In this document: positions 13,432-25,375 of the stretch, in pieces
Layout of the letters: every line of letters begins with the position of its first letter
How positions within the stretch are numbered: the stretch's first letter is position 1
Assembly: GCA_002753565.1 (NCBI GenBank)
Contig: PEAM01000008.1
Coordinates: 62,001 to 126,000 of the forward strand
Direction of reading: 5' to 3'
Source of the DNA: Magnetococcales bacterium
Lineage (GTDB): Bacteria; Pseudomonadota; Magnetococcia; Magnetococcales; JADFYX01
DNA length: 64,000 nucleotides
Position numbers and translations under genes: made by a program
The notes under the pieces: generated by a model
Told to the model about the DNA's origin: nothing
The model's input: the letters and a program-made list of their open reading frames with translations, nothing else
Databases searched by the model: none

Positions 13432-13740
13432 CTACATCAGTCGCAATCTTTCAACCGGTTGATCTTTTAGAAGATGTTGCTCAAAAATTTCAGTCACATC
13501 TTCAGGTTTGACCCCTTTGTACCAAACCCCTTCAGGATAGACTACCATCGTCGGGCCTTGATCGCAGGGTCCCAGACAGAAGGTGCCTGTGACCTGGATT
13601 TGACCAAACAGGTCACGTTTTTCCATCTCACCCATCATTGTCTCAAACACACCCGATGCACCCGATCCTCCGCAAGATCCTCTAGGGTGGCCTGGTGGAC
13701 GTTGGTTCATACAGACAAAAACATGATGTTTGGGCTTCAT
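13432..13740 (-). CDS. Thioredoxin-like [2Fe-2S] ferredoxin
   Basis: A 102-aa electron-transfer protein of the thioredoxin-fold ferredoxin family. Four cysteines, Cys10, Cys23, Cys55 and Cys59 (HVFVCMNQRPPGHPRGSC and GTFCLGPCDQGP), match the C-X10-12-C and C-X3-C cluster pattern. It is the last gene of a three-gene minus-strand unit behind a peroxiredoxin and a superoxide reductase. A role as electron donor to the neighbouring superoxide reductase is an inference from context. ATG 13740 is the only plausible start. Confidence 0.88.
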   Translation of the reverse strand: MKPKHHVFVCMNQRPPGHPRGSCGGSGASGVFETMMGEMEKRDLFGQIQVTGTFCLGPCDQGPTMVVYPEGVWYKGVKPEDVTEIFEQHLLKDQPVERLRLM

Positions 13741-13793
13741 GGGTTTTCCCCTTTATCGAAGGTAAAAAAATGAGTCTGCCTAGCGTTATCGGA

Positions 13794-14186
13794 TTAGGAA
13801 GCGACGGAAACCTCGACCGGGTCACACTCCCAAAGTCCATGCTTGGTGCAGTAGGAGAGTGCTGTCAAACGGAGCTTGGCACCACTGGGGATCACGTTGA
13901 AGATCACCTCGGCTTGTCCCTTTTGACCCTGACCACCCAAGGTGCCGGAGACAAAATTGGCCTCAGCCAACAGGGTAGCACCATTATAGAGCTGAATGGA
14001 TTTGATGAAATGGTCTGCATCATCCGGGTGGCTGTACTCTTGCCCCATTCTGACAGTGACGGGAAACTTCTCTCCCGCTTTGGCGTTGTTGGCACACTCG
14101 ATAAAAGGGGAGTGACGATCGATATAGTCCTTTTTGGCCTCTTTATCGACGTCGGAAATGTCTACGTAGCGATTGATCTGTGGCAT
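13794..14186 (-). CDS. Superoxide reductase (neelaredoxin-type, 1Fe-SOR)
   Basis: Reduces superoxide to hydrogen peroxide without making O2. The 130-aa product lacks the desulforedoxin domain of 2Fe-SORs. All five ligands of the catalytic iron are visible: His25 (RHSPFIE), His53 and His59 (YSHPDDADHF), Cys113 and His116 (SYCTKHGLWE). The Glu-Lys pair that normally precedes the first His is replaced by Asp23-Arg24. It lies between a peroxiredoxin gene, whose product could remove the peroxide formed, and a ferredoxin gene. Typical of anaerobes and microaerophiles. Confidence 0.88.
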   Translation of the reverse strand: MPQINRYVDISDVDKEAKKDYIDRHSPFIECANNAKAGEKFPVTVRMGQEYSHPDDADHFIKSIQLYNGATLLAEANFVSGTLGGQGQKGQAEVIFNVIPSGAKLRLTALSYCTKHGLWECDPVEVSVAS

Positions 14187-14222
14187 CCGATTTTCTCCAA
14201 ATAATAGGTGAACTGAAGTGGA

Positions 14223-14822
14223 TTAAAGGTCGCTGGCGTTGGCTGTCAGGTATTCGGCCACACCCTCTGTAGAACCTTTCATACCGGGCTTGCCCTTGTT
14301 CCAACCAGCTGGGCACACTTCGCCATGCTCTTCAGTAAACTGGAGAGCGTCAATCATACGCAGCATCTCGTCGATGTTACGACCCAAAGGTAGATCGTTG
14401 ACCACCTGATGGCGAACAATACCCTCTTTGTCGATCAGGAAAGAGCCGCGCAACGCAATGCCGGGGCCAAAATAGAGGTCATAGGCTTTGGTGATCTCTT
14501 TGGAGATGTCGGCAACCAGGGGATATTGAACATTGCCAATACCACCGTTGTTGACATCGGTGTTTTTCCAGGCCAAATGGGTAAAATGGGAGTCAACCGA
14601 AACACCAATCACCTCAACGCCACGATCCTTGAACTCTTTTAAGCGGTGATCAAACGCGATGATCTCGGAGGGGCAGACAAAGGTGAAGTCCAGGGGATAA
14701 AAAAACAGAACGACATATTTACCCTTGGAGTCGGACAGGGAAAAGTCGGCTTTGATGCTGTTGTCGGGCATGACGGCATTGGCGGTAAAATCGGGGGCTG
14801 GCTGGGTAACGAGTACACTCAT
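14223..14822 (-). CDS. Typical 2-Cys peroxiredoxin (AhpC/TSA family)
   Basis: Reduces hydrogen and organic peroxides. The 199-aa product has the peroxidatic Cys50 in DFTFVCPSE and the resolving Cys170 in HGEVCPAGW, with the decamer-type C-terminal tail. Start ATG 14822 is chosen because GGAG lies about 11 nt upstream and the family begins near MSVLVTQPAPDF; an upstream frame to 14858 is not needed. It is the first gene of the operon with superoxide reductase and ferredoxin, transcribed away from the XRE-cupin regulator. Confidence 0.94.
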   Translation of the reverse strand: MSVLVTQPAPDFTANAVMPDNSIKADFSLSDSKGKYVVLFFYPLDFTFVCPSEIIAFDHRLKEFKDRGVEVIGVSVDSHFTHLAWKNTDVNNGGIGNVQYPLVADISKEITKAYDLYFGPGIALRGSFLIDKEGIVRHQVVNDLPLGRNIDEMLRMIDALQFTEEHGEVCPAGWNKGKPGMKGSTEGVAEYLTANASDL

Positions 14823-14969
14823 GATACGTTTTTCTCCATTTGAAATTATATGGGTCAATATAAGCTAAGTTCGGGATTATAACAGACCAGGAGTGGCTAA
14901 AAAAGCCGGCAATGAAAATAATCCATCACCCCCTTTTTTCTCCAGACCTGCATCCATCTGATGAGAGGC

Positions 14970-15057
14970 AATATTTCATTTTTTTATCTTCTCGTCAACC
15001 AAAAAAATATGGTATAACATCAAAAAAGTTGACAGATCGACGACATTTTTTCATTTT
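14970..15057. promoter_or_regulatory. Divergent control region, Prx operon / XRE-cupin gene
   Basis: On the minus strand TTGACG (14993-14998) and AATATT (14970-14975) are 17 bp apart, which would promote the Prx operon with a leader of about 140 nt. On the plus strand TTGACA (15029-15034) with a weak CATTTT (15052-15057) could serve the regulator. The two -35 hexamers form the inverted pair GTCAAC (14994-14999) and GTTGAC (15028-15033), which could be an operator half-site pair. Predicted from sequence only. Confidence 0.45.
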
Positions 15058-15084
15058 TTCTGAAAAAGAGAGGGACCTTTCTCT

Positions 15085-15639
15085 GTGATCACCAATCTTG
15101 TCGGGACCCGTATTCGCTCCATTCGGGCCCAAAGAAAATTGACCCAGCAGCAGTTGGCCGACCTGGCCGGCATACCCCGGCCCACTCTGGCGACGGTGGA
15201 GAGGGATGACTCCAACCCCAGTCTTTCTGTCGTCTTCAAGGTGGCCAACGCCTTTGGCATGACCCTGGACCAACTGGTTGAGTCCTCCCATAGAAAGGTT
15301 CGGGTTTATCGAGCCAATAAAATGCGCCAAATCACCTCCGGAGATGGGGATTATCACGCCACCACCATCACCCCTTCGCAGCTATTCCACATCAATCAAC
15401 TGGAATTTTTCCTGCAAGTCGGTGGTATCTATGAGGGTAAACCCCATCCACCCGGTAGTGAAGAGCATCTTTATATTCTCCAAGGAGAGATCTCCTTGGA
15501 TGTCTCTCAGGAGACCATCCATCTGAGCAAAGGGGATTATGCCTGTTTCCTGGGTAATGTTCGCCATGTCTATCGTAATGTCGGCCAGGAGGAGGGGTGG
15601 GCCATGGTAACCATTCTGGAGGGGATGACCTCTTTTTAG
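15085..15639 (+). CDS. XRE-family transcription regulator with C-terminal cupin domain
   Basis: A 184-aa protein with an N-terminal helix-turn-helix (about 5-60; RKLTQQQLADLAGIPRPTLA) and a C-terminal cupin (about 105-180; PHPPGSEEHLYILQGEISL). This architecture is that of small-molecule-sensing regulators such as SutR/PuuR; the ligand is unknown. GTG 15085 starts it, with GAGGGA about 9 nt upstream. Its divergent position next to the Prx-SOR-ferredoxin operon suggests it controls that operon and itself. Confidence 0.88.
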   Translation: MITNLVGTRIRSIRAQRKLTQQQLADLAGIPRPTLATVERDDSNPSLSVVFKVANAFGMTLDQLVESSHRKVRVYRANKMRQITSGDGDYHATTITPSQLFHINQLEFFLQVGGIYEGKPHPPGSEEHLYILQGEISLDVSQETIHLSKGDYACFLGNVRHVYRNVGQEEGWAMVTILEGMTSF

Positions 15640-15660
15640 GGGGAAAGAGCAGACCGTTTC

Positions 15661-15689
15661 TTGATACCTGGTCTGTTAACCACTACTAT
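15661..15689 (+). promoter_or_regulatory. Predicted bolA-grxD promoter
   Basis: TTGATA (15661-15666), 17-bp spacer, TACTAT (15684-15689). Just downstream lies GGGATAATCGTC (15702-15713), a relative of the element seen upstream of glyQ and the nucleotide-sugar dehydrogenase, which could instead be the -10. Confidence 0.4.
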
Positions 15690-15748
15690 CCGCGAGAACT
15701 TGGGATAATCGTCGCAATGAGTACTTACCAGACTTGAAGGATTAAACT

Positions 15749-15988
15749 ATGGAAACCGAAGCACTCCGGCAGATTTTACAAGCGGGGTTGGAGCATGACT
15801 ATTTGGCGCTGGATGGAGATGGACGCCATTTTGACCTGACTGTGGTCAGTGCCGCCTTTCGAGGATTGAGCAAAGTTCAGCAACATCAGGTGGTCTATAA
15901 GGTGTTGGGGGATCTGATGAAAGAGGATGTTCACGCTCTGGTTATCAAAGCCCACACACCAGAAGCCTGGGCAGAACAGAACAGATAA
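15749..15988 (+). CDS. BolA-family protein
   Basis: A 79-aa single-domain BolA protein (IbaG/YrbA-like size). The region FRGLSKVQQHQVVYKVLGDL holds the family's helix and the conserved histidine that, in known complexes, helps ligate a [2Fe-2S] cluster shared with a monothiol glutaredoxin. The next gene, 30 bp downstream, encodes exactly such a glutaredoxin. The pair therefore probably works in iron-sulfur trafficking or iron sensing. Confidence 0.9.
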   Translation: METEALRQILQAGLEHDYLALDGDGRHFDLTVVSAAFRGLSKVQQHQVVYKVLGDLMKEDVHALVIKAHTPEAWAEQNR

Positions 15989-16018
15989 TTTTTTAATATT
16001 GTTACAGGAGAAGCTCGC

Positions 16019-16339
16019 ATGAGCGATACCAACAGCAAAATTCAAGAACAAATTTCCAATAACAGCATTGTACTCTACATGAAAGGCAGCCCCATTTTTC
16101 CCCAGTGCGGTTTTTCTGGTCGAGCGGCTGATCTTTTAAAAAGATGTGGTGCCAAAGGCTATTTTTCTGTGGATGTATTGCAAGACCCAGAGATTAGAGA
16201 GGGTATCAAAGCCTTTTCCAGTTGGCCCACCATCCCCCAACTCTACGTTAAGGGGGAGTTTGTCGGCGGTTCCGATATCATGATGGAGCTGTACGAATCC
16301 GGCGAGCTTAAAACCCTGATTGAATCAACCAATAGCTAA
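16019..16339 (+). CDS. grxD: Monothiol glutaredoxin, Grx4 family
   Basis: A 106-aa CGFS-type glutaredoxin that carries a glutathione-bound [2Fe-2S] cluster for delivery to apo-proteins. The active site is Cys30 in PQCGFSGRA, and WPTIPQLYVKGEFVGGSDI is the glutathione-binding part. A notable local variant is MKGSPIFPQCGFS where MKGTP is usual. It is in an operon with the BolA gene just upstream and is followed by a stem-loop at 16359-16388. Confidence 0.95.
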   Translation: MSDTNSKIQEQISNNSIVLYMKGSPIFPQCGFSGRAADLLKRCGAKGYFSVDVLQDPEIREGIKAFSSWPTIPQLYVKGEFVGGSDIMMELYESGELKTLIESTNS

Positions 16340-16402: not shown

Positions 16403-18211
16403 CTAGGGCTCATAAAGAGGCTGCAGGGCAGCTTTGACCGGTTTGGTCTGCTGACTCTTCCCCTCTTGTCTTGCCATCTCTTCAAACCGTTGCCATAACG
16501 CCTCTCCCTGCCAGTTGCTGCCATCCGGGGCAAAAAGCGCCTGATCCAGCCGCCTCAACTCCTGACGCAGGCTGCTGCTCCCTCGACTGCCGATGGTATC
16601 CAACCCTGGAGAGGCCTCTTCAGGCCACTGGGTTTTGGCCCATTGAATCAACAGGCGGCGGGTGTCGTTGGGGCGGTTCTCCCGGCAGCTTTGTCTTAAC
16701 TGTTTGCCTATCTCATCAATGTTGGGCCGATTCACTTGGGAGTAGGGGGTGGGAGGCTCTTGAGAGTGTTTGCGAGCGTGGTGGCTCCACCACCATCCCA
16801 ACGCGGTAACCATCCACCCGGTTGCCAAAAACAGACTCAACCAAAACAGCAGCGCAGGGTCAGATTGCGGGGGGATGGTAGCGGGAACAGTTGGACTCTT
16901 GGCCGGGGCCGGAAGGGGTGGTGTGGCTGTGACCAAGGGTTGGGGTGGGGGCGGAAGGGGTTGCCGATTGGGGTTGGGGTTGGTTGAGGGGCTGACATCG
17001 AAAGAGAAGCCTGGCACTCTGGCAATCTTCATGACATCCTCATCCACATCCCACCAGGGGATCTCGATGGGAGCCAGTTGATGGTGACCGGGGGTGGTGG
17101 GAATGAGAGCATTTTTTTGTCGGCGCACACCAACAATGCCGGATATTTCCACCTGATCGGTCACTTCGGGCCGGTCGGTATACTGTTTGAGCCCCTTGTT
17201 GCTTTCATGGGGCAACTCGGGTAGCTGCTTGGCGGGAATACCGTCGGCCATAATGGATAAGGTTCGGGTGATCGGCTCATCGGTGATAAACTGGGGCGGC
17301 TCCTGACTCCACTTTTCGCTCAGGATAAGCTCATGGGCAGGCAGCCACCTTTTACCCTTGAACGAGGCGGGAATGGGTCGTACCTGCAGAGTAAGGCTTT
17401 TGGAGACGACCCGCTTGACCGAACTGCGTTGACGCCCGAAGGGGTCGTTGAAAAGAGAGCCAAAAACCCGGTTTCCTCCACCAATGGTAGCCGTTAATTG
17501 GATCGGTTTAAGGGTAAGTGTGCCGCTCTCTTGAGGAAAGAAGGCGTAGCGATGCTCTTCAACAATGTAGGGGCGGCCGTTATGCTCTGTCTTGTAGCGC
17601 TGGCCCTCACCCAGCCGTTCAACCACCACCTCACCCCCCTCAAACTGGGGTTGGGTCATGTTGGCACCGGATAGATTGATTGCCCGGAAAAAACGGATGG
17701 TCAACACCACCTGAGCCTGAACATAGGGTGTTTCCCTATCGGTCTCCACCTCCAGAAACAGATCGGAACCGGCGTCACTGTTGATGTTCGAGTCGGGTCG
17801 CTCTTGGGTTACCTTGATCTGGGCCGGTTTGGACTGAAAGCGGCCAAAGGATAGAGGGGGGATGTCGATCAGGCCAGCCTGTTTGGGCATGAGGGTCAAT
17901 GCCCAGGAGACCGTTTGGCGGCGGGCGCCGTTAATATATTGCAGGTTGGTACTCTGCTTGGTGTGCAGGATGTCGAAGTTTTCTTTCAACACAGAGAAGT
18001 CCGGGCTGCCATCCACCTCCCCTTCAACCTCAAAAAAAAGTTGAAAAGATTCGTTGACCGCCACCGGTGAGCGATCAACCTTGAGGGTGATCTCAACCGC
18101 TTGGGCAGGGAAAGGGAGACATGCCACAAACAGAAGGGCGACTCCAACCCAAAAAAGCCGATTCTGCCAGCCGCTCTGCCATCGCCTCTTGTTGGTTATC
18201 TGCGTTACCAT
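16403..18211 (-). CDS. batD: BatD-family (oxygen tolerance) membrane protein
   Basis: A 602-aa periplasmic protein with a signal peptide (to about residue 38, FPAQAVEIT) and Ig-like beta domains. A Pro-rich linker and one C-terminal membrane helix (about 452-476) follow, and then a cytoplasmic tail. The opening EITLKVDRSPVAVNESFQL and the later PQFEGGEVVVERL are typical of BatD. Bat proteins were named for aerotolerance in Bacteroides, but the biochemical role is unsettled. It overlaps the upstream BatB/C fusion gene by 7 bp and is the last gene of a seven-gene unit. Confidence 0.88.
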   Translation of the reverse strand: MVTQITNKRRWQSGWQNRLFWVGVALLFVACLPFPAQAVEITLKVDRSPVAVNESFQLFFEVEGEVDGSPDFSVLKENFDILHTKQSTNLQYINGARRQTVSWALTLMPKQAGLIDIPPLSFGRFQSKPAQIKVTQERPDSNINSDAGSDLFLEVETDRETPYVQAQVVLTIRFFRAINLSGANMTQPQFEGGEVVVERLGEGQRYKTEHNGRPYIVEEHRYAFFPQESGTLTLKPIQLTATIGGGNRVFGSLFNDPFGRQRSSVKRVVSKSLTLQVRPIPASFKGKRWLPAHELILSEKWSQEPPQFITDEPITRTLSIMADGIPAKQLPELPHESNKGLKQYTDRPEVTDQVEISGIVGVRRQKNALIPTTPGHHQLAPIEIPWWDVDEDVMKIARVPGFSFDVSPSTNPNPNRQPLPPPPQPLVTATPPLPAPAKSPTVPATIPPQSDPALLFWLSLFLATGWMVTALGWWWSHHARKHSQEPPTPYSQVNRPNIDEIGKQLRQSCRENRPNDTRRLLIQWAKTQWPEEASPGLDTIGSRGSSSLRQELRRLDQALFAPDGSNWQGEALWQRFEEMARQEGKSQQTKPVKAALQPLYEP

Positions 18212-20013
18212 GGTTGATCCATTCTATCGGTTGGTCGTTGACTTTTCTGATATTGATAATGAAATTTTCGCCTCAGCAGCCCACCCGGATCATCCGGAAT
18301 ACGCCGCAACCATCGATCAACAGCGCGTTTGGCCTCATCTTCTTTCATCTGCTCTTCCGTAATCTCTTGGCTTGCCGCCTCTTTTTCAGCCATTTCCTCT
18401 GTCTCTTGGGGTGGGTGTGGCGGCTGTTTGCTTTGGGCTTGTTGCGCATCCTCCGGTTTTTTCTCTTCAGCCTGACCTTCTGCCTTGGCAGGCTCCTTCT
18501 CTTGTTCTCCTGTCTGCTCAGAGGAGGGGGTCTGTTGGGAGCGTTGCTCCATACCCTCATCATCTGAACGATTGTTTTGCTCGGAAGGGGGGGCTCCCTC
18601 TCCCTCTTGCTTCTCTTGGTTTTTATTCTCTTGCTTGCCTGATTGGTTTTCCGATTCAGGGGGGGGCGGCAGAGCCTTTTTGACCACCTCTCGATTGTGT
18701 TTGGCATCCCTGTGATTGGGCTCCTGTTGCAGCGCCTTGTCATAGGCTTCCAGAGCCTCTGGCAGCCGTCCCAGCCGAGCCAGGGCGTTGCCTCGGTTAT
18801 ACCAGGCATCAGCCCCCTCCACCCCCTTGAGGCTCTCCAGGGAGGCTTCATAATCTCCCCCTCGATAGTGGGCGGCCGCCTGCCACTGGGGATCTTGGAA
18901 CAGTTCGGCGGCCTGATCCGGTTTTTCTGCCATCAGAGCCGAATAGCCCCGCTGGTCTGGTCGCTGCCAGAGCGCATCCCACTCCCAGGCGAACCCCTCT
19001 CCCACATAAGAGAAAAAAAGCAGGATAGCCAGAAGCGACTGGCGCCGAAAAGTGGTGGCTGCCCAGATCAGCACCGGGATCAGCAGCCAAGGCCCCTCTT
19101 CATACCATCGGTCGGCTAAAAAATCGGTTTCGGTAACCGACATGAAGAGGGGGTTCTGTTTGATTCGGCTCAGCAGTTGGTTGATGTCTCCGTCGTCACT
19201 GCGCAGGGAGAGATAGCTGCCCCCTGTCTGGGTAGCGATCTTTTGCAGAGGGAGGCTGTTGAGTTTTGGAATAACAATGGCACCATTATGGTCGGAGAAA
19301 AACCCCCCTTCTGGCAGGGGAATAGGCGCCCCTTCTGTTGTACCCACCCCCAAAATCGAGAGGCGATGCGGTTGAACATCCTCGGCAGAAAAAGAGGAGG
19401 AGTCGGGCCATCCGTCGGTAATCAAGAGCAGGTCACCCCGGTGAATACCACTGTTTTTAAACAGCTCCACCCCTTTATTGAGGGCAGCCTGGGGGCGACT
19501 TCCCTGGGCGGGCATCAGATCGGTTGTGAGGCTTTTGACCAGATTGGCAATGTTATGGGTATCATCCGTCAAAGGGGAGACCACAAACGGTTCGGCAGCA
19601 TAGACAATCAGGGCGGTCTGCCCTTCAACCCGGCGGGAGAGAATATCGGTTATTTTATGCCGAGCCCGAGTCAGCCGGTTGGGTTTAAGGTCGGTGGCTT
19701 CCATGGAGCGGGAGAGATCCAGAAGAAGGACCAACGCCGACTGGTTGCTGAAAACCGGCTGTGGAATACGTTGCCAGACCGGACCTGCCAGGGCGATGAT
19801 GACCAGAGAGGCCGAGAGGAGCGCACCCCAGGGGAGTGACTGTTTCAACCCTTGTTGAGAGCGGTTCATGATATAGGGGAGCAGCTGGGGGTCGCACACC
19901 TCACCCCAGCTTTTGCCCCCTCTTACTCTCTTGCCCAGAGACCAGACAAGCAGACCAAGCGGGATAAAGGCCAAAAACCACCCAGGCCGTAAAAAATGGA
20001 ACGTCTCCAGCAT
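18205..20013 (-). CDS. BatB/BatC fusion: VWA domain plus TPR membrane protein
   Basis: A 602-aa protein. The N-terminal half is BatB-like, with two membrane helices (about 10-27 and 62-78) and a von Willebrand A domain with MIDAS motif Asp99-Leu-Ser101-Arg-Ser103 and LLLITDGWPD. After further membrane segments near 305-345, the C-terminal half is BatC-like, with TPR units (ADAWYNRGNALARLGRLPEA, near 400-440). A very long Gln/Glu/Lys/Pro low-complexity tail follows. The gene abuts batA and overlaps batD. Fusion of BatB and BatC into one chain occurs in several proteobacteria. Confidence 0.88.
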   Translation of the reverse strand: MLETFHFLRPGWFLAFIPLGLLVWSLGKRVRGGKSWGEVCDPQLLPYIMNRSQQGLKQSLPWGALLSASLVIIALAGPVWQRIPQPVFSNQSALVLLLDLSRSMEATDLKPNRLTRARHKITDILSRRVEGQTALIVYAAEPFVVSPLTDDTHNIANLVKSLTTDLMPAQGSRPQAALNKGVELFKNSGIHRGDLLLITDGWPDSSSFSAEDVQPHRLSILGVGTTEGAPIPLPEGGFFSDHNGAIVIPKLNSLPLQKIATQTGGSYLSLRSDDGDINQLLSRIKQNPLFMSVTETDFLADRWYEEGPWLLIPVLIWAATTFRRQSLLAILLFFSYVGEGFAWEWDALWQRPDQRGYSALMAEKPDQAAELFQDPQWQAAAHYRGGDYEASLESLKGVEGADAWYNRGNALARLGRLPEALEAYDKALQQEPNHRDAKHNREVVKKALPPPPESENQSGKQENKNQEKQEGEGAPPSEQNNRSDDEGMEQRSQQTPSSEQTGEQEKEPAKAEGQAEEKKPEDAQQAQSKQPPHPPQETEEMAEKEAASQEITEEQMKEDEAKRAVDRWLRRIPDDPGGLLRRKFHYQYQKSQRPTDRMDQPW

Positions 20014-21024
20014 CTATTGTTCTCTCCTCAGTCGACCCAGACCAACCCTCTGCCAAACCACAAGCAGAGCCAGCAACAAGGCCCCGGTCAACGGCCAGAT
20101 GAACAGAGCCCGTGAAGGGCGGTAAGAGCGGCTCTCCTTCTCCACCGGTTCCAGTTCATCCAGCAGTTGGTAGATTTTTTCCAGCTCTTCGGTGTTGCGG
20201 GCCCGAAAATAGCGCCCTTGGGTTGCTTCTGCCATGGCTTTCAAGGTTTTTTCGTCCAACTCCGCCGATGGGTTGATGCGTCGATTCCCAAAAAAGGAGC
20301 GGACAATCATCTCGTCGGCACCGATTCCGATGGTATGAATTTTCAGCCCCTCGGCAGCAGCCAGACGAGCCGCCTGCAGGGGCGAGACCTCTCCGGCAGT
20401 ATTGGCGCCGTCGGTGAGTAGAACCAGCACCCGGCTGTCGGGGGTGGCGTTGCGGAGTTTTTTAACCGCCAAACCGACCGCATCGCCGATGGCGGTCTCC
20501 TTGCCAGCCAAGCCGATGGCCGACTCTCTTAACAGGGTGGCAACCGTATCTCGGTCAAAGGTTAGTGGTGTTTGCAGATAGGCGTTGCGACCAAAGAGGA
20601 TCAGCCCCACCCGGTCGCCCTGACGCCGTTTGATAAACGCCCCAGCCACCTGTTTGGTTGCCGTTAATCGATCGACCACCTCGCCATTCAAGACAAAATC
20701 CTTCACCTCCATACTACCAGAGAGGTCCACCGCCAACATGAGATCCCGACCATTGACCGGTAACGCCACCGGCTCCCCCAACCATTGGGGGCGAGCCGTA
20801 GCCGTGAGCAGTAGCAGCCAGGCCAACATTGGCAACAGCAGGCTTCGCCAACTGTTTTTGTGGGCGTTGGTCTGGGTAGAGTAGGTCAGGATGGCGTGAA
20901 AATCTTCGGGAAAGGGGATCTTCAGGGCGGCTTCGGATGGATGAGAGACAACCCGTCCCAAGCGGCGCACCAACCAGGGGAGTGGTAACAGAACAACAAT
21001 CCAGGGCCATTCAAACTGTATCAT
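20014..21024 (-). CDS. batA: BatA-like VWA-domain membrane protein
   Basis: The 336-aa product has membrane helices near 7-20, 60-76 and 308-326, and a VWA domain between them. The MIDAS is intact: Asp100-Leu-Ser102-Gly-Ser104 (AVDLSGSMEVKDF) plus LVLLTDGANTAGE. It is the first Bat gene of the operon. The gap to the BatB/C gene is zero, and 16 bp separate it from the upstream membrane-protein gene. The MoxR-type AAA+ ATPase and DUF58 genes that usually sit upstream are missing here. Confidence 0.9.
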   Translation of the reverse strand: MIQFEWPWIVVLLPLPWLVRRLGRVVSHPSEAALKIPFPEDFHAILTYSTQTNAHKNSWRSLLLPMLAWLLLLTATARPQWLGEPVALPVNGRDLMLAVDLSGSMEVKDFVLNGEVVDRLTATKQVAGAFIKRRQGDRVGLILFGRNAYLQTPLTFDRDTVATLLRESAIGLAGKETAIGDAVGLAVKKLRNATPDSRVLVLLTDGANTAGEVSPLQAARLAAAEGLKIHTIGIGADEMIVRSFFGNRRINPSAELDEKTLKAMAEATQGRYFRARNTEELEKIYQLLDELEPVEKESRSYRPSRALFIWPLTGALLLALLVVWQRVGLGRLRREQ

Positions 21025-21040
21025 TCAGAACCCCTCTTTA

Positions 21041-21619
21041 TTAACGAATAACCGCACCAGCCAACAGCAAAAAAAGCAGCCCCGCGCCCGCACCCAGATG
21101 AATCGAACGTTTAAGGGGAATACCAAAGACAGCATTCAGCCCGACCACGGTCAGTATGCTCTCGATGACCACAATGGTAATATGCCAGGGAATGATGACT
21201 TCTGGACTGCCCCACCCCAGTTTGACCAGAAAACTATCGATTAAAAGGCTGGGAATCCAGGGACCAAAAAAACAGAATCCGACCAGGGTCCAGGTTCGGC
21301 GGTAGGTCATGATGGAGATCACCGCATGGCTGCGGCCATACTGCCAGATAAAGTAGGAGAGGGTGCTGATAATCACCAGACCGTAGGGACCGTAGGCGAA
21401 AATTTCAAAAAAACGGTAACTTTGAGGGTCAATCCCAAAAGGGACCGGAAGCAGCATGGGGCTGTTTTCCTGGTAGAGGGAGACCACGGTTGTCAGGGCG
21501 GTAGACTCCCAACGGAACACCTGCAAAAAAACAGCCAGGGGAAGCATGTCAAAAGCTCTCAAGCGGGTGTAGAGTCCCGATGGGCGCAGAAACATGAAGC
21601 AGAGCAGATTTTTCAACAT
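21041..21619 (-). CDS. Hypothetical polytopic membrane protein (192 aa)
   Basis: About five hydrophobic segments are visible (near 72-92, 103-125, 142-165 and 172-190, plus a weaker N-terminal one). There is no soluble domain and no motif I can name; the layout is loosely Yip1-like, which I do not claim. It lies 15 bp after the cyclic-nucleotide-binding gene and 16 bp before batA, so it is very likely co-expressed with both. A role as membrane partner of the Bat proteins is an inference from position. Confidence 0.75.
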   Translation of the reverse strand: MLKNLLCFMFLRPSGLYTRLRAFDMLPLAVFLQVFRWESTALTTVVSLYQENSPMLLPVPFGIDPQSYRFFEIFAYGPYGLVIISTLSYFIWQYGRSHAVISIMTYRRTWTLVGFCFFGPWIPSLLIDSFLVKLGWGSPEVIIPWHITIVVIESILTVVGLNAVFGIPLKRSIHLGAGAGLLFLLLAGAVIR

Positions 21620-21634
21620 GGAACCAATTTCCCT

Positions 21635-22048
21635 CTAGCTCTCCGTCTTGTTCTGACAGGCGCGCAGCTCTTTTCTGAGGCGAACCACCTCGCTGATGAG
21701 GGTGCGGGTTCGAAAGGCCATTTTAATTAAAATGCGTAAGGTGAACGATGGCTCTTCACCGATCCACTGCAAAAAACCCTTTTTATCCACCGACAACACC
21801 CGAACAGTACCCAAAGCTCGGGCGCTGGCAATCCGGGGTTGATCATCAAACAGAGCCAGCTCACCAAACACCTCATCCTCTTTCAATAAGGCTAATTGAA
21901 AGGCGTCATCTGACTCCCCATCGACGATAATCTCTACCTTTCCTTCCAAAATAACAAACATGCAATCGGCCTCTTCACCCTGACGAATAATGATTTCGCC
22001 ATCTTCGTAGGTTTTGCCAAGGGCCGATTTTTTTGAATGGAATAGCAT
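21635..22048 (-). CDS. Cyclic-nucleotide-binding domain protein
   Basis: A 137-aa stand-alone cNMP-binding domain. The phosphate-binding cassette FGELALFDDQPRIASARA is intact, with Glu and Arg in the canonical places, and GEEADCMFVILEGKVEIIV is the beta-roll entry. A C-terminal helix (RTRTLISEVVRLRKELRAC) replaces the DNA-binding HTH of Crp/Fnr proteins, so it probably works by protein contact. Gaps of 6 bp and 15 bp tie it to its neighbours. It could gate the membrane protein encoded next. Confidence 0.88.
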   Translation of the reverse strand: MLFHSKKSALGKTYEDGEIIIRQGEEADCMFVILEGKVEIIVDGESDDAFQLALLKEDEVFGELALFDDQPRIASARALGTVRVLSVDKKGFLQWIGEEPSFTLRILIKMAFRTRTLISEVVRLRKELRACQNKTES

Positions 22049-22054
22049 GGGTTT

Positions 22055-23392
22055 TTACCTGTGTAACAGCTGTCGAGCAAGGTTTGTTAACAGTACTCTC
22101 ACCAGATTGAAAAGTACCACGGGATGGAGAGAGCGCCGAAAGATATTACGATAAGAGGAGCTTCCCGTAAAAGTATCCCAGAGGGCCGAACTCAGATGCC
22201 TGGGGGAGTCAGGGTCGCTCTGCTCTTGGCGGATGACGGTAATAATGGCCTCTTGAATCCAAGAGTAGGGCCGCAACAGAGCATCACCAAAGAACAGAAG
22301 ATGGCCTAAACGGTTGTCCCAGTCCAGGGAGCGACAGGTGGGCATGAAAAAACGTTGAAAATCCTCCTCCGAGACGCCGTGAGAGATCGCCGTATAGGCG
22401 AGGGATTTCGCCAGCCGATAGGCGGCCCCGATCCCATCTTTATAGAGACGGGAAGAGGAGCAGTCCCCCACCATGACGACACGATTGGTAAAGGGGTTGA
22501 CCGGTGCGCCTATGTTGATTTTAGGTTGGCAGGTGCAGGTCTGGACCGGGATCTCCCAGCCCTGAGGGAGACATTTTTTAATCTCCGGAGCGCCATAGAC
22601 CTGCTTGACCAACGCCTGATCAATGCCATCGCCAAGAATAATCAGGGTGGCATAAGGCCCCTTGGGGGTAATGGCGATAAACTTGACGCGGGGAATGTTG
22701 AGAATAAAAACATGCATGGAGTGGCCCAGCAGCCGCTCCACCTCCTCATCGCCAAAATAGAGTTCAGAGATGAAGGCCTTGGTCGATTTGGGTGGGAGAT
22801 AGCCAAAATCCAGCCCGTCAAACATTTTCAAGCCCGGACTGTTTAACCCCAAGCCACCTACCACCAGATCGTAACGCTGCTGGTTATCCTCCGGCCAATG
22901 GATGCAGGGGAACCCCTCATCCCACTCCAGCCCCCTGGCCCGCTCGGGGATATGTCTGGCCCCTTTTGTTTTGGCCAGTTCCAGCAGGTAGCCATCAAAG
23001 CTGATTTTGGGTAGGGGGGTCTGGGTCTCTGCGCCTGTGGGTCCGCCGCCTCGATAGATGCAGGCAATCCGCATCTCTTCCCGGTCGTCATCTATTCGCA
23101 CCGAACTGATGTCGCTATGCAGGGTATAGGCCTCAATGGTGTCGATTAGGATTTCATCGGGCAGGTGGATGCCATCACTGGCCATTTTTTGCACCAGAGA
23201 TTCCGAGATGACGCCACCACACATGTTGCAGCCACGAGGGCCTGTCAGGGTAAAATCCCGTGGCTCGAAGATGTCGACCTGGATATCGAGATCCACCTGT
23301 CTGGCCAGGTCCAATAGGAATATGGCAGAAAAAGAGCCGGCCGGCCCACCGCCTATAATGCCTATACGAGACCCATTTTTAAGTTCCATCAT
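22055..23392 (-). CDS. FAD-dependent oxidoreductase, geranylgeranyl-reductase-like
   Basis: A 445-aa flavoprotein with the N-terminal dinucleotide motif GIIGGGPAGSFSA (11-23). A second FAD motif, RVVMVGDCSSSRLYKDGIGA (304-323), lies further on. The order resembles the geranylgeranyl reductase family. Four cysteines form two tight groups, Cys55-x-x-Cys58 (RGCNMCGG) and Cys286-x-Cys288 (TCTCQPKI). A C-terminal helical tail follows. The substrate is unknown. Its start ATG overlaps the stop of the upstream MBL hydrolase gene by 4 bp, and the cNMP-binding gene follows after 6 bp. Confidence 0.75.
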   Translation of the reverse strand: MMELKNGSRIGIIGGGPAGSFSAIFLLDLARQVDLDIQVDIFEPRDFTLTGPRGCNMCGGVISESLVQKMASDGIHLPDEILIDTIEAYTLHSDISSVRIDDDREEMRIACIYRGGGPTGAETQTPLPKISFDGYLLELAKTKGARHIPERARGLEWDEGFPCIHWPEDNQQRYDLVVGGLGLNSPGLKMFDGLDFGYLPPKSTKAFISELYFGDEEVERLLGHSMHVFILNIPRVKFIAITPKGPYATLIILGDGIDQALVKQVYGAPEIKKCLPQGWEIPVQTCTCQPKINIGAPVNPFTNRVVMVGDCSSSRLYKDGIGAAYRLAKSLAYTAISHGVSEEDFQRFFMPTCRSLDWDNRLGHLLFFGDALLRPYSWIQEAIITVIRQEQSDPDSPRHLSSALWDTFTGSSSYRNIFRRSLHPVVLFNLVRVLLTNLARQLLHR

Positions 23393-24351
23393 TTCCCTTT
23401 ATGTTTTTCCAGGCGGTCCAACCACACCTCTAGCCCCTGGGCGTTGATCTCTTGATCGGAGGCAAGCAGGGTGACAGCCAAGGTGTTGTCTATGGGGGCG
23501 TTGAGCTCTTTGAGCGCAGTCAAGGCCTGTTTTCTGAGGTCCGACAGCAACTGCTGATGGTTGCTCACCCCCTGGATTCTGGCCTTTTTTGCCATCGCCA
23601 CATACTGATCCAACTGGGTATGCAGGCTGGATAGAAATTCTGGCTGGTAGGGCAGGGCGCCAAAATGGGTGAGATAGAGCCATTTTGGTTTAAGGGCCGC
23701 CAGACGATCCAGGCTCTGATGAAACCGTTCCGGGTCCAGCTGTACCGGTGTGGTGGGAGGGAAGATAAAGGGGCGACTGCCGCCATCAAACTCCCGATAG
23801 GAGATGCCAAAGGCGTCTCCGGTAAAAAGCCCCTGGCTGGTTGGGTCCCAGACACAAAAATGGTGTCGGGCATGGCCGGGGGTATCATAAAAGTGCAACA
23901 CTCTTCCGCCGATGGAGAGGGTCTCTCCATCCCCAGGCTTGACCACCCGCTCCTCTGGGGTGGGGATGATATCGCCCAAGGCGGCTTTGAACAGCTCCTC
24001 CCCATAGACAGCCATGGCGCTGGCTTTGAGTTTGGTGGGGTCGATCATATGGTCTGCCCCGGCCTCGTGGACGTAGAGCTTGGCGGATGGGCAGCAGCGC
24101 ATCAACTCCCCTGCGCCTCCTGCGTGGTCCAGGTGGACATGGGTGACAATGACGGCCTCGACATCCTGGGGTTTTAGCCCCACTCGTTTAAGCCCCTCCA
24201 TAAGACGTGGAACAGCCAAAAGCGGTCCGGTTTCAATGAAGGCCGCTTTTCCTTGTTCTACCAGTAAAAAGGAGGCCGCCATTTGTGGGCGGTTGTAGTG
24301 GGTATCGATACAGGTGATCCCGTAGGGAAGATCGTGATAGTCTCTGTTCAT
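23389..24351 (-). CDS. Metallo-beta-lactamase-fold hydrolase
   Basis: A 320-aa hydrolase with the zinc motif THVHLDHAGG (His71, His73, Asp75, His76). Further ligand histidines lie in DTPGHARHHFC, and a GDAFGISYRE segment carries the bridging Asp. The C-terminal helical part is of the MBL-fold glyoxalase-II-like type. The start is ambiguous. ATG 24351 shares its CATG with the ATG of the divergent glycosyltransferase gene; ATG 24384 would extend the product to 331 aa and overlap that gene. It is the first gene of the Bat-associated unit. Confidence 0.85.
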   Translation of the reverse strand: MNRDYHDLPYGITCIDTHYNRPQMAASFLLVEQGKAAFIETGPLLAVPRLMEGLKRVGLKPQDVEAVIVTHVHLDHAGGAGELMRCCPSAKLYVHEAGADHMIDPTKLKASAMAVYGEELFKAALGDIIPTPEERVVKPGDGETLSIGGRVLHFYDTPGHARHHFCVWDPTSQGLFTGDAFGISYREFDGGSRPFIFPPTTPVQLDPERFHQSLDRLAALKPKWLYLTHFGALPYQPEFLSSLHTQLDQYVAMAKKARIQGVSNHQQLLSDLRKQALTALKELNAPIDNTLAVTLLASDQEINAQGLEVWLDRLEKHKGK

Positions 24352-25375
24352 GCGAAAAACATTCTCCCATCCTTTGATATCCATCTTGTTACCATTCCAT
24401 AATGCATCAGCTACCTTGGACCAATGCCTGGACTCTATTCTAAGCCAAACGTTCGACAATTTCGAGCTTTTGGCCATTAATGACGGTTCTACCGACCTGG
24501 CATCATCCCCCCTTATAACACGAATGGAGCAAGAGAGCCGCATTCGTCTGATCTCTCCCGGACGGGTGGGACTGGTAGCCGCTCTGAACCTGGGTCTTAA
24601 ATCGGCCCGCTCTCCCCTGATTGCCCGCATGGATGCCGATGACATCATGCACCCAACCCGGCTGGAAAAACAGTGGAACCACCTGGAAAAACATCCAGAA
24701 TGTGCTCTGATCGCCTCTCAGGTTCGCCTCTTCCCGGCGGCGTTGGTCAAAGCGGGGTTTTTAACGTATATTGAGTGGCAAAACAACTGTTTGACTTCCG
24801 AAGATATTCAAGAGGAGATCTACTGGGAGTCGCCGTTAGCCCACCCCTCGGTGATGTTTCGTCGATCGTGCGTCATGGCCTTGTCGGGTTATCGGGATGG
24901 TCTTTTTCCGGAAGATTATGATCTGTGGCTAAGGATGAACCAGGCAGGACTGAGAATGGAAAAACTTTCAGAGGTACTGCTCGATTGGCGGGAGGGTGCC
25001 GACCGTCTAACCCGTACCGACCCTCGATATCGTCGGTCGGCTTTCGATCGACTGCGTGGCCACTATCTGGCTCAAGAGCCTCGTCTGCTCAGTGGGCGTC
25101 CTCTGGTTATCTGGGGAGCAGGCCGTCCAACCCGATTACGGGCCAGACACCTGATGGACAGGGGCTTTAAACCGGTTGCCTGGATTGATGTGGACCCCAA
25201 AAAAATAGGAAACCAGGTTTGGGATATACCGGTAGAATCGCCTCTTTGGCTCCAGCAGGAGCCCAAACCTTTTGTTCTTAGTTATGTGACCGCTCGGGGC
25301 GCTCGTGAAAAAAATAGCCAACGGTTGCAAAAAATGGGGTATTATCGAGGGCGAGATTATCTCATGATTGGGTGA
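24350..25375 (+). CDS. Family 2 glycosyltransferase with C-terminal Rossmann-like domain
   Basis: A 341-aa protein. The N-terminal GT-A domain has LISILLPFHNASATLDQCL and INDGSTD, and the DxD-type metal motif Asp95-Ala-Asp97-Asp98 (ARMDADDIMHPTRL). From about residue 245 a second domain begins with PLVIWGAGRPTRLRARHLM and VAWIDVDPKKIG, which looks like a nucleotide-binding fold. No ribosome site precedes ATG 24350. It is not in a polysaccharide cluster. The acceptor and donor are unknown. Confidence 0.85.
   Translation: MRKTFSHPLISILLPFHNASATLDQCLDSILSQTFDNFELLAINDGSTDLASSPLITRMEQESRIRLISPGRVGLVAALNLGLKSARSPLIARMDADDIMHPTRLEKQWNHLEKHPECALIASQVRLFPAALVKAGFLTYIEWQNNCLTSEDIQEEIYWESPLAHPSVMFRRSCVMALSGYRDGLFPEDYDLWLRMNQAGLRMEKLSEVLLDWREGADRLTRTDPRYRRSAFDRLRGHYLAQEPRLLSGRPLVIWGAGRPTRLRARHLMDRGFKPVAWIDVDPKKIGNQVWDIPVESPLWLQQEPKPFVLSYVTARGAREKNSQRLQKMGYYRGRDYLMIG

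Follow-up and report, generated by a model that had tools for sequence, protein, structure and literature searches.

A putative flavoenzyme and cyclic-nucleotide sensor block joined to half of a split MoxR/Bat operon in a Magnetococcales genome

Bat loci usually include a MoxR AAA+ ATPase and a DUF58 gene, and the MoxR/Bat operon has been linked to the aerotolerance of Bacteroides. In the Magnetococcales, the order of the magnetotactic cocci, a 64,000-nucleotide stretch of one genome (here the window; part of contig C22 of genome G000, 3.87 Mb, 99% complete) carries batA, batB/C and batD directly behind genes for an MBL-fold metallohydrolase, an FAD flavoprotein (FAD), a small cyclic-nucleotide-binding protein (CNB) and a polytopic membrane protein. 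Do these seven genes form one dedicated system, or have separate units come to lie together? Our data indicate that two older units, a putatively sensor-gated flavoenzyme block and one half of a MoxR/Bat operon, were joined, most likely into one transcription unit in this species, and we place the probability of this reading at about two in three. The joining itself is young.

Organization of the seven-gene locus

The seven open reading frames at 16403-24351 all lie on the minus strand with gaps of -4, 6, 15, 16, 0 and -7 bp (Table 1), and their coordinates reproduce the original prediction exactly. Since all gaps are at most 16 bp and two are overlaps, which is typical of one transcript, the seven genes are probably co-transcribed in this species. 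The MBL start at 24351 is backed by the start codons of aligned orthologues. Matches in a promoter consensus scan were at chance level, while terminator-like consensus matches exceeded those of shuffled sequence, are located inside genes and were not used as evidence. All orthologues at 50-73% identity belong to genomes or MAGs labelled Magnetococcales, Ca. Magnetaquicoccus inordinatus among them.

At one edge of the locus, the start codons of the glycosyltransferase and MBL genes overlap in the palindrome CATG (window 24345-24355), leaving no intergenic room for a promoter, and the same overlap of divergent start codons is apparently present in G001 and G004. At the other edge, positions 13432-16339 adjoining batD hold genes for a glutaredoxin, a peroxiredoxin, a desulfoferrodoxin-type superoxide reductase and an XRE-cupin regulator.

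Table 1. Features of the locus and its edges, in window coordinates
Feature	Position	Strand	Identification
MBL-fold metallohydrolase	23389..24351	-	PF00753, 98 bits
FAD flavoprotein, 445 aa	22055..23392	-	GGGPAG motif
CNB, 137 aa, single cyclic-nucleotide-binding domain, no HTH	21635..22048	-	PF00027, 81.6 bits
Yip1-like (probable) polytopic membrane protein, 192 aa	21041..21619	-	helical model
BatA, membrane VWA protein with MIDAS	20014..21024	-	PF00092, E 5e-19; BatA-type NCBIfam match; DLSGS at 100
BatB/C fusion, VWA with MIDAS + TPR	18205..20013	-	PF13519, TPR; BatB/BatC NCBIfam matches
BatD	16403..18211	-	PF13584, 90 bits; DUF7939, 74 bits
Glutaredoxin gene (edge, convergent with batD, outside the unit)	16019..16339	+	PF00462
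Family 2 glycosyltransferase gene (edge, divergent from MBL, outside the unit)	24350..25375	+	PF00535
Desulfoferrodoxin-type superoxide reductase	13794-14186		

A Bat operon split between two contigs

We found that batA, batB/C and batD are ordinary Bat genes, a known system in rearranged form. The MIDAS motif DxSxS is present in both BatA and BatB, and the TPR region of BatC and BatD (PF13584, DUF7939) of the MoxR/Bat system are there as well. The locus had been described as a Bat unit lacking MoxR, and a Pfam search indeed found no MoxR or DUF58 gene inside the seven-gene unit; the rest of the genome, however, holds both. Looking for MoxR elsewhere, as had been proposed, revealed the single canonical MoxR of the genome on contig C21 (G000:C21:34587-34979; PF07726, E 1.5e-61), followed by DUF58 and DUF4381 in overlapping frames. 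MoxR and DUF58 within the same operon, by which MoxR/Bat systems are recognized, thus occur in trans only, and we rejected a Bat system truly devoid of MoxR.

Elsewhere in the order the operon is whole: G006 and G011, from other families, carry moxR-DUF58-DUF4381-batA-batB/C-batD without a break. The contig covered for G015 keeps moxR through batA together, those covered for G008 and G023 keep DUF58 through batD, and BatA lies within 6 kb of MoxR in 10 of the 35 genomes that have both. With the trio intact on C21 and the operon contiguous in other families, we conclude that the Bat operon has been split in this genus, and likewise in family f7; the part present in the window is the batA-batB/C-batD half. 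A role for Bat proteins in oxidative defence has been proposed (PMC3557215). In each of the five genomes of the genus, bat has glutaredoxin, peroxiredoxin and superoxide reductase genes next to it, which fits an oxidative-stress role of Bat.

The flavoenzyme-sensor block

Neither FAD nor the membrane protein matched a family in the Pfam search of the window ORFs. FAD has a group A monooxygenase/halogenase/GGR-like fold with a GGGPAG motif, and a C-G-G motif after its strand 2 is one that we take to resemble that of geranylgeranyl reductases and group A flavoproteins. In the NCBIfam geranylgeranyl-reductase model (GG-red-SF, TIGR02032) all 23 homologues gave a match (best E 1e-13), with the first member at 39.5 bits against a cut-off of 158.8 bits; the window copy was not listed at 1e-3. 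These scores fall below the family cut-off, so we rejected a plain geranylgeranyl reductase and read FAD as a distant relative of that superfamily. A model of a fused FAD-CNB protein (mean pLDDT 79) matched kynurenine monooxygenase (KMO) and a chain of the electron-bifurcating EtfABCX complex in Foldseek. Four cysteines (C55, C58, C286 and C288) are invariant in 92 of 92 distinct rows, with the invariance of Cys58 biased by its place in the patterns that chose the homologues from outside the order; Cys55, Cys286 and Cys288 were not in those patterns. G000 also encodes a FAD paralogue, 45% identical (L102:5836-8270, contig C18), preceded by genes for a CNB-GGDEF protein and a glnB-like PII protein; the arrangement is conserved in G004, and a similar glnB-CNB-FAD order occurs in G010 and G024.

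The CNB match to PF00027 reaches 81.6 bits against a cut-off of 27.5 bits, and the phosphate-binding residues E63 and R72 are present in the window copy. Arg72 is kept in 105 of 107 CNB homologues and Glu63 in 82 of 107, so some members could have lost ligand binding. A CRP/FNR-type transcription factor was rejected: CNB misses the NCBIfam CRP cut-off (49 vs 266 bits), and Pfam found in its 137 residues the CNB domain alone, with no helix-turn-helix. In family f4 a gene for a CZB domain (a zinc-binding chemoreceptor domain) takes the place of CNB after MBL-FAD (L073:10654-11556, L081:3959-4780), an apparent sensor swap.

The MBL metal ligands (HxHxDH and the rest: H71, H73, D75, H76, H160, D179, H229) are intact and invariant in 15 aligned sequences. 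The membrane protein gave a helical model (pLDDT 84) for which a PDB fold search returned nothing at E≤0.001. Yip1 (PF04893, searched at E≤5) matched 2 of 11 orthologues weakly (best E 4.4e-5) and not the window copy, and the protein is probably Yip1-like.

We found MBL-FAD-CNB-membrane to be an older, separate block that occurs across Magnetococcales, and the four upstream genes are conserved as a unit outside this genome. MBL and FAD stand side by side on the same strand in 26 of the 33 genomes that have both, from ten families, and FAD and the membrane gene are linked, in the order FAD-CNB-membrane, in 14 of 25 genomes from five families. Elsewhere in the order the block usually neighbours lolA, yajQ and rimO rather than bat. 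In the window both settings are retained, with lolA-yajQ-rimO past the glycosyltransferase gene and bat after the membrane gene.

Linkage to bat is far narrower. Of the 29 genomes that have FAD and BatA, 7, from two genera only, show them linked, and the membrane gene is linked to BatA in 5 of 22, from this genus only. The order MBL-FAD-CNB-membrane-batA, whose conservation had been proposed as a check, was found nowhere beyond this genus and is intact in two of the four species where FAD was found; G000 and G003 hold all seven genes together. In G001 and G004, CNB-membrane-bat and MBL-FAD sit on separate contigs with differing genes at the break, and in G002, a 65% complete MAG, CNB-membrane-bat is present and FAD was not found. 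The membrane-batA gap in these three genomes is 111-145 bp. G000 and G003 branch off earlier than the G001+G004 pair in the FAD tree, so the break between FAD and CNB is derived. All five members of the genus retain CNB-membrane-batA-batB/C-batD, including those from which MBL-FAD has departed. At L070:5180-7318, from another species of the genus, a CNB-GGDEF gene adjoins the glycosyltransferase gene beside MBL-FAD, with similar genes in L068 and L069.

In a second genus, g17, five genomes have FAD-CNB and batA divergently oriented, 185-258 bp apart. The FAD tree forces separate origins for this adjacency and that in the genus of the window (g1). In three g17 genomes the gap between MBL and the membrane gene has closed to 3-14 bp, with FAD-CNB gone from between them. 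Within g17, the gene after FAD-CNB encodes a Na+/H+ exchanger in G028 (L086:10112-13299), and in G040 (L096:5542-10648) converging Rnf-type genes come next. Other relocations of block genes within the order do not involve bat.

At the core of the block is the FAD-CNB pair, which we read as ancient. We scanned 84,980 species, obtained 338 coding stretches and kept the best 80, of which 47 lie outside Magnetococcales, in Chloroflexi, Acidobacteria, Aminicenantes, delta-proteobacterial lineages, Verrucomicrobia and others. Among these 47 (from the best 80 of 338), FAD carries a C-terminal CNB fusion in 15 and is directly followed by a CNB gene in 28; the remaining four include L180 and L183, each with an overlapping CNB frame, and L165, whose FAD is close to the end of a contig. 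A search of 398 sampled Pseudomonadota genomes at 1e-15 returned the FAD family from Magnetococcales alone. Outside the order, class III nucleotide cyclases are the family most often encoded next to FAD-CNB (9 of 77 neighbours). A crude two-seed profile picked out 11 cyclase ORFs in these loci, and ten of them are no more than 900 bp from FAD, although near and far DNA were sampled about equally (253 vs 266 kb); some of the loci are related, so the effective number is smaller. No class III cyclase was found beside the Magnetococcales FAD copies (loci L068-L127); the window genome encodes nine class III cyclase domains. The CZB swap in f4 and the CNB-GGDEF gene next to the G000 paralogue point in the same direction as the cyclases.

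We read FAD-CNB as a candidate cAMP/cGMP-controlled flavoenzyme on the basis of fusion, adjacency and conserved residues. That FAD and CNB look signal-controlled, with fusions across phyla and nucleotide cyclases nearby, is in keeping with the signal-gated redox module first suggested for this locus. The pair appears to be widespread, multi-phylum and undescribed, and no such flavoenzyme-CNB pair is described in the literature searched. On a Dehalococcoidia contig (L156:1805-10161), FAD, CNB and a cyclase protein are followed 6 kb on by a homologue of the Magnetococcales MBL (E 9e-60).

Competing readings and known systems

Could all seven genes be one dedicated system, in which a second-messenger-gated redox module supplies or repairs something for the Bat/MoxR chaperone and was recruited through coupled functions? 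The retention of CNB-membrane-bat throughout the genus, also after MBL-FAD departed, argues for it, as do the separately arisen FAD-CNB/batA adjacency in g17 and the proposed role of Bat in oxidative defence. On an unrelated Pseudomonadota contig (MAG CSMAG_1789, L184:3560-10707), moreover, a fused FAD-CNB gene comes 3 bp after DUF4350-MoxR-DUF58-SpoIIM-RDD, which ties FAD-CNB to a MoxR-type operon for a third time. If Bat were irrelevant, somewhat fewer than two independent joinings to batA would be expected; the two hint at a functional link without establishing one. However, FAD and BatA lie apart in 22 of the 29 genomes that have both, and either occurs without the other: FAD without BatA or MoxR at the thresholds used in the high-completeness genomes G005 and G007, and BatA without FAD in G008, G019, G023 and G027, of which G008 and G023 are of high completeness. 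Near the 47 outside loci (from the best 80 of 338) there is no BatA, BatB or BatD homologue and MoxR is near one only, and in g17 FAD-CNB and batA are divergent rather than co-directional. We therefore consider a dedicated system unlikely. The four genes had been suggested to work with the Bat proteins, and this cooperation is possible but weakly supported, with the block apart from bat in most of the order. We are similarly doubtful of a broader version, in which FAD-CNB, as an undescribed flavoenzyme of many phyla under cyclic-nucleotide control whose four invariant cysteines possibly form a metal or redox site, was joined independently at least twice to Bat and once to MoxR-DUF58 because it supplies redox control or a product to MoxR-type membrane chaperones.

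At the other extreme, two operons may simply have been brought together by rearrangement and share neither transcript nor function. In most of the order the block is not linked to bat, and the 111-145 bp between the membrane gene and batA in G001, G002 and G004 would leave room for a promoter. The window itself, with gaps typical of one transcript, and the survival of CNB-membrane-bat in every genus member weigh against chance, and we hold this reading to be quite improbable.

We favor two older units that probably share a transcript here. Class III cyclases encoded elsewhere in the genome would make cAMP or cGMP, the CNB subunit would bind it, and the bound subunit would switch the flavoenzyme through contact between the two, as suggested by the fused forms, so that it reduces or oxidises a substrate that is perhaps lipid- or membrane-borne. 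The MBL hydrolase and the Yip1-like protein may act in the same pathway, while MoxR-DUF58-DUF4381 from the other locus would act in trans with the products of batA-batB/C-batD. A shared transcript may give shared expression, and the data need no physical cooperation of the block with Bat. The wider value lies in the FAD-CNB pair, a flavoenzyme with a cyclic-nucleotide sensor that occurs in many phyla with cyclases adjacent and has no Pfam family of its own. If our reading is true, it would provide a direct route from cAMP or cGMP to a redox enzyme without a transcription factor, and the natural fusions make gating testable with one protein.

Compared with the MoxR/Bat operon, as in the Leptospira bat cluster (PMC3557215), the locus has batA, batB/C and batD in order with MIDAS VWA domains, a batB-batC fusion also reported for L. 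biflexa, and moxR and DUF58 in the same genome; it differs in having moxR-DUF58-DUF4381 on a separate contig and four unrelated same-strand genes upstream of batA. The best PDB sequence relatives of MBL are PqsE and ST1585-type hydrolases, with which it shares a full metal site, although the similarity is at superfamily level only. The membrane protein is helical and polytopic like Yip1 (PF04893), which two orthologues weakly match, but the window copy has neither this match nor a PDB fold match. FAD shares the GGGPAG FAD site and the modelled fold with the geranylgeranyl reductase superfamily (TIGR02032) and group A flavoproteins (KMO, QhpG and the EtfABCX flavoprotein chain), and differs in scoring well below the TIGR02032 cut-off, in the invariant Cys-x2-Cys and Cys-x-Cys pairs and in a partner or fused CNB. 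CNB, finally, shares PF00027 with the CRP family and the cAMP-controlled acetyltransferase Pat, and its fused forms place the domain on an enzyme, as in Pat; it differs in having no helix-turn-helix, in an enzyme that is a flavoprotein and in a sensor that is often a separate small gene.
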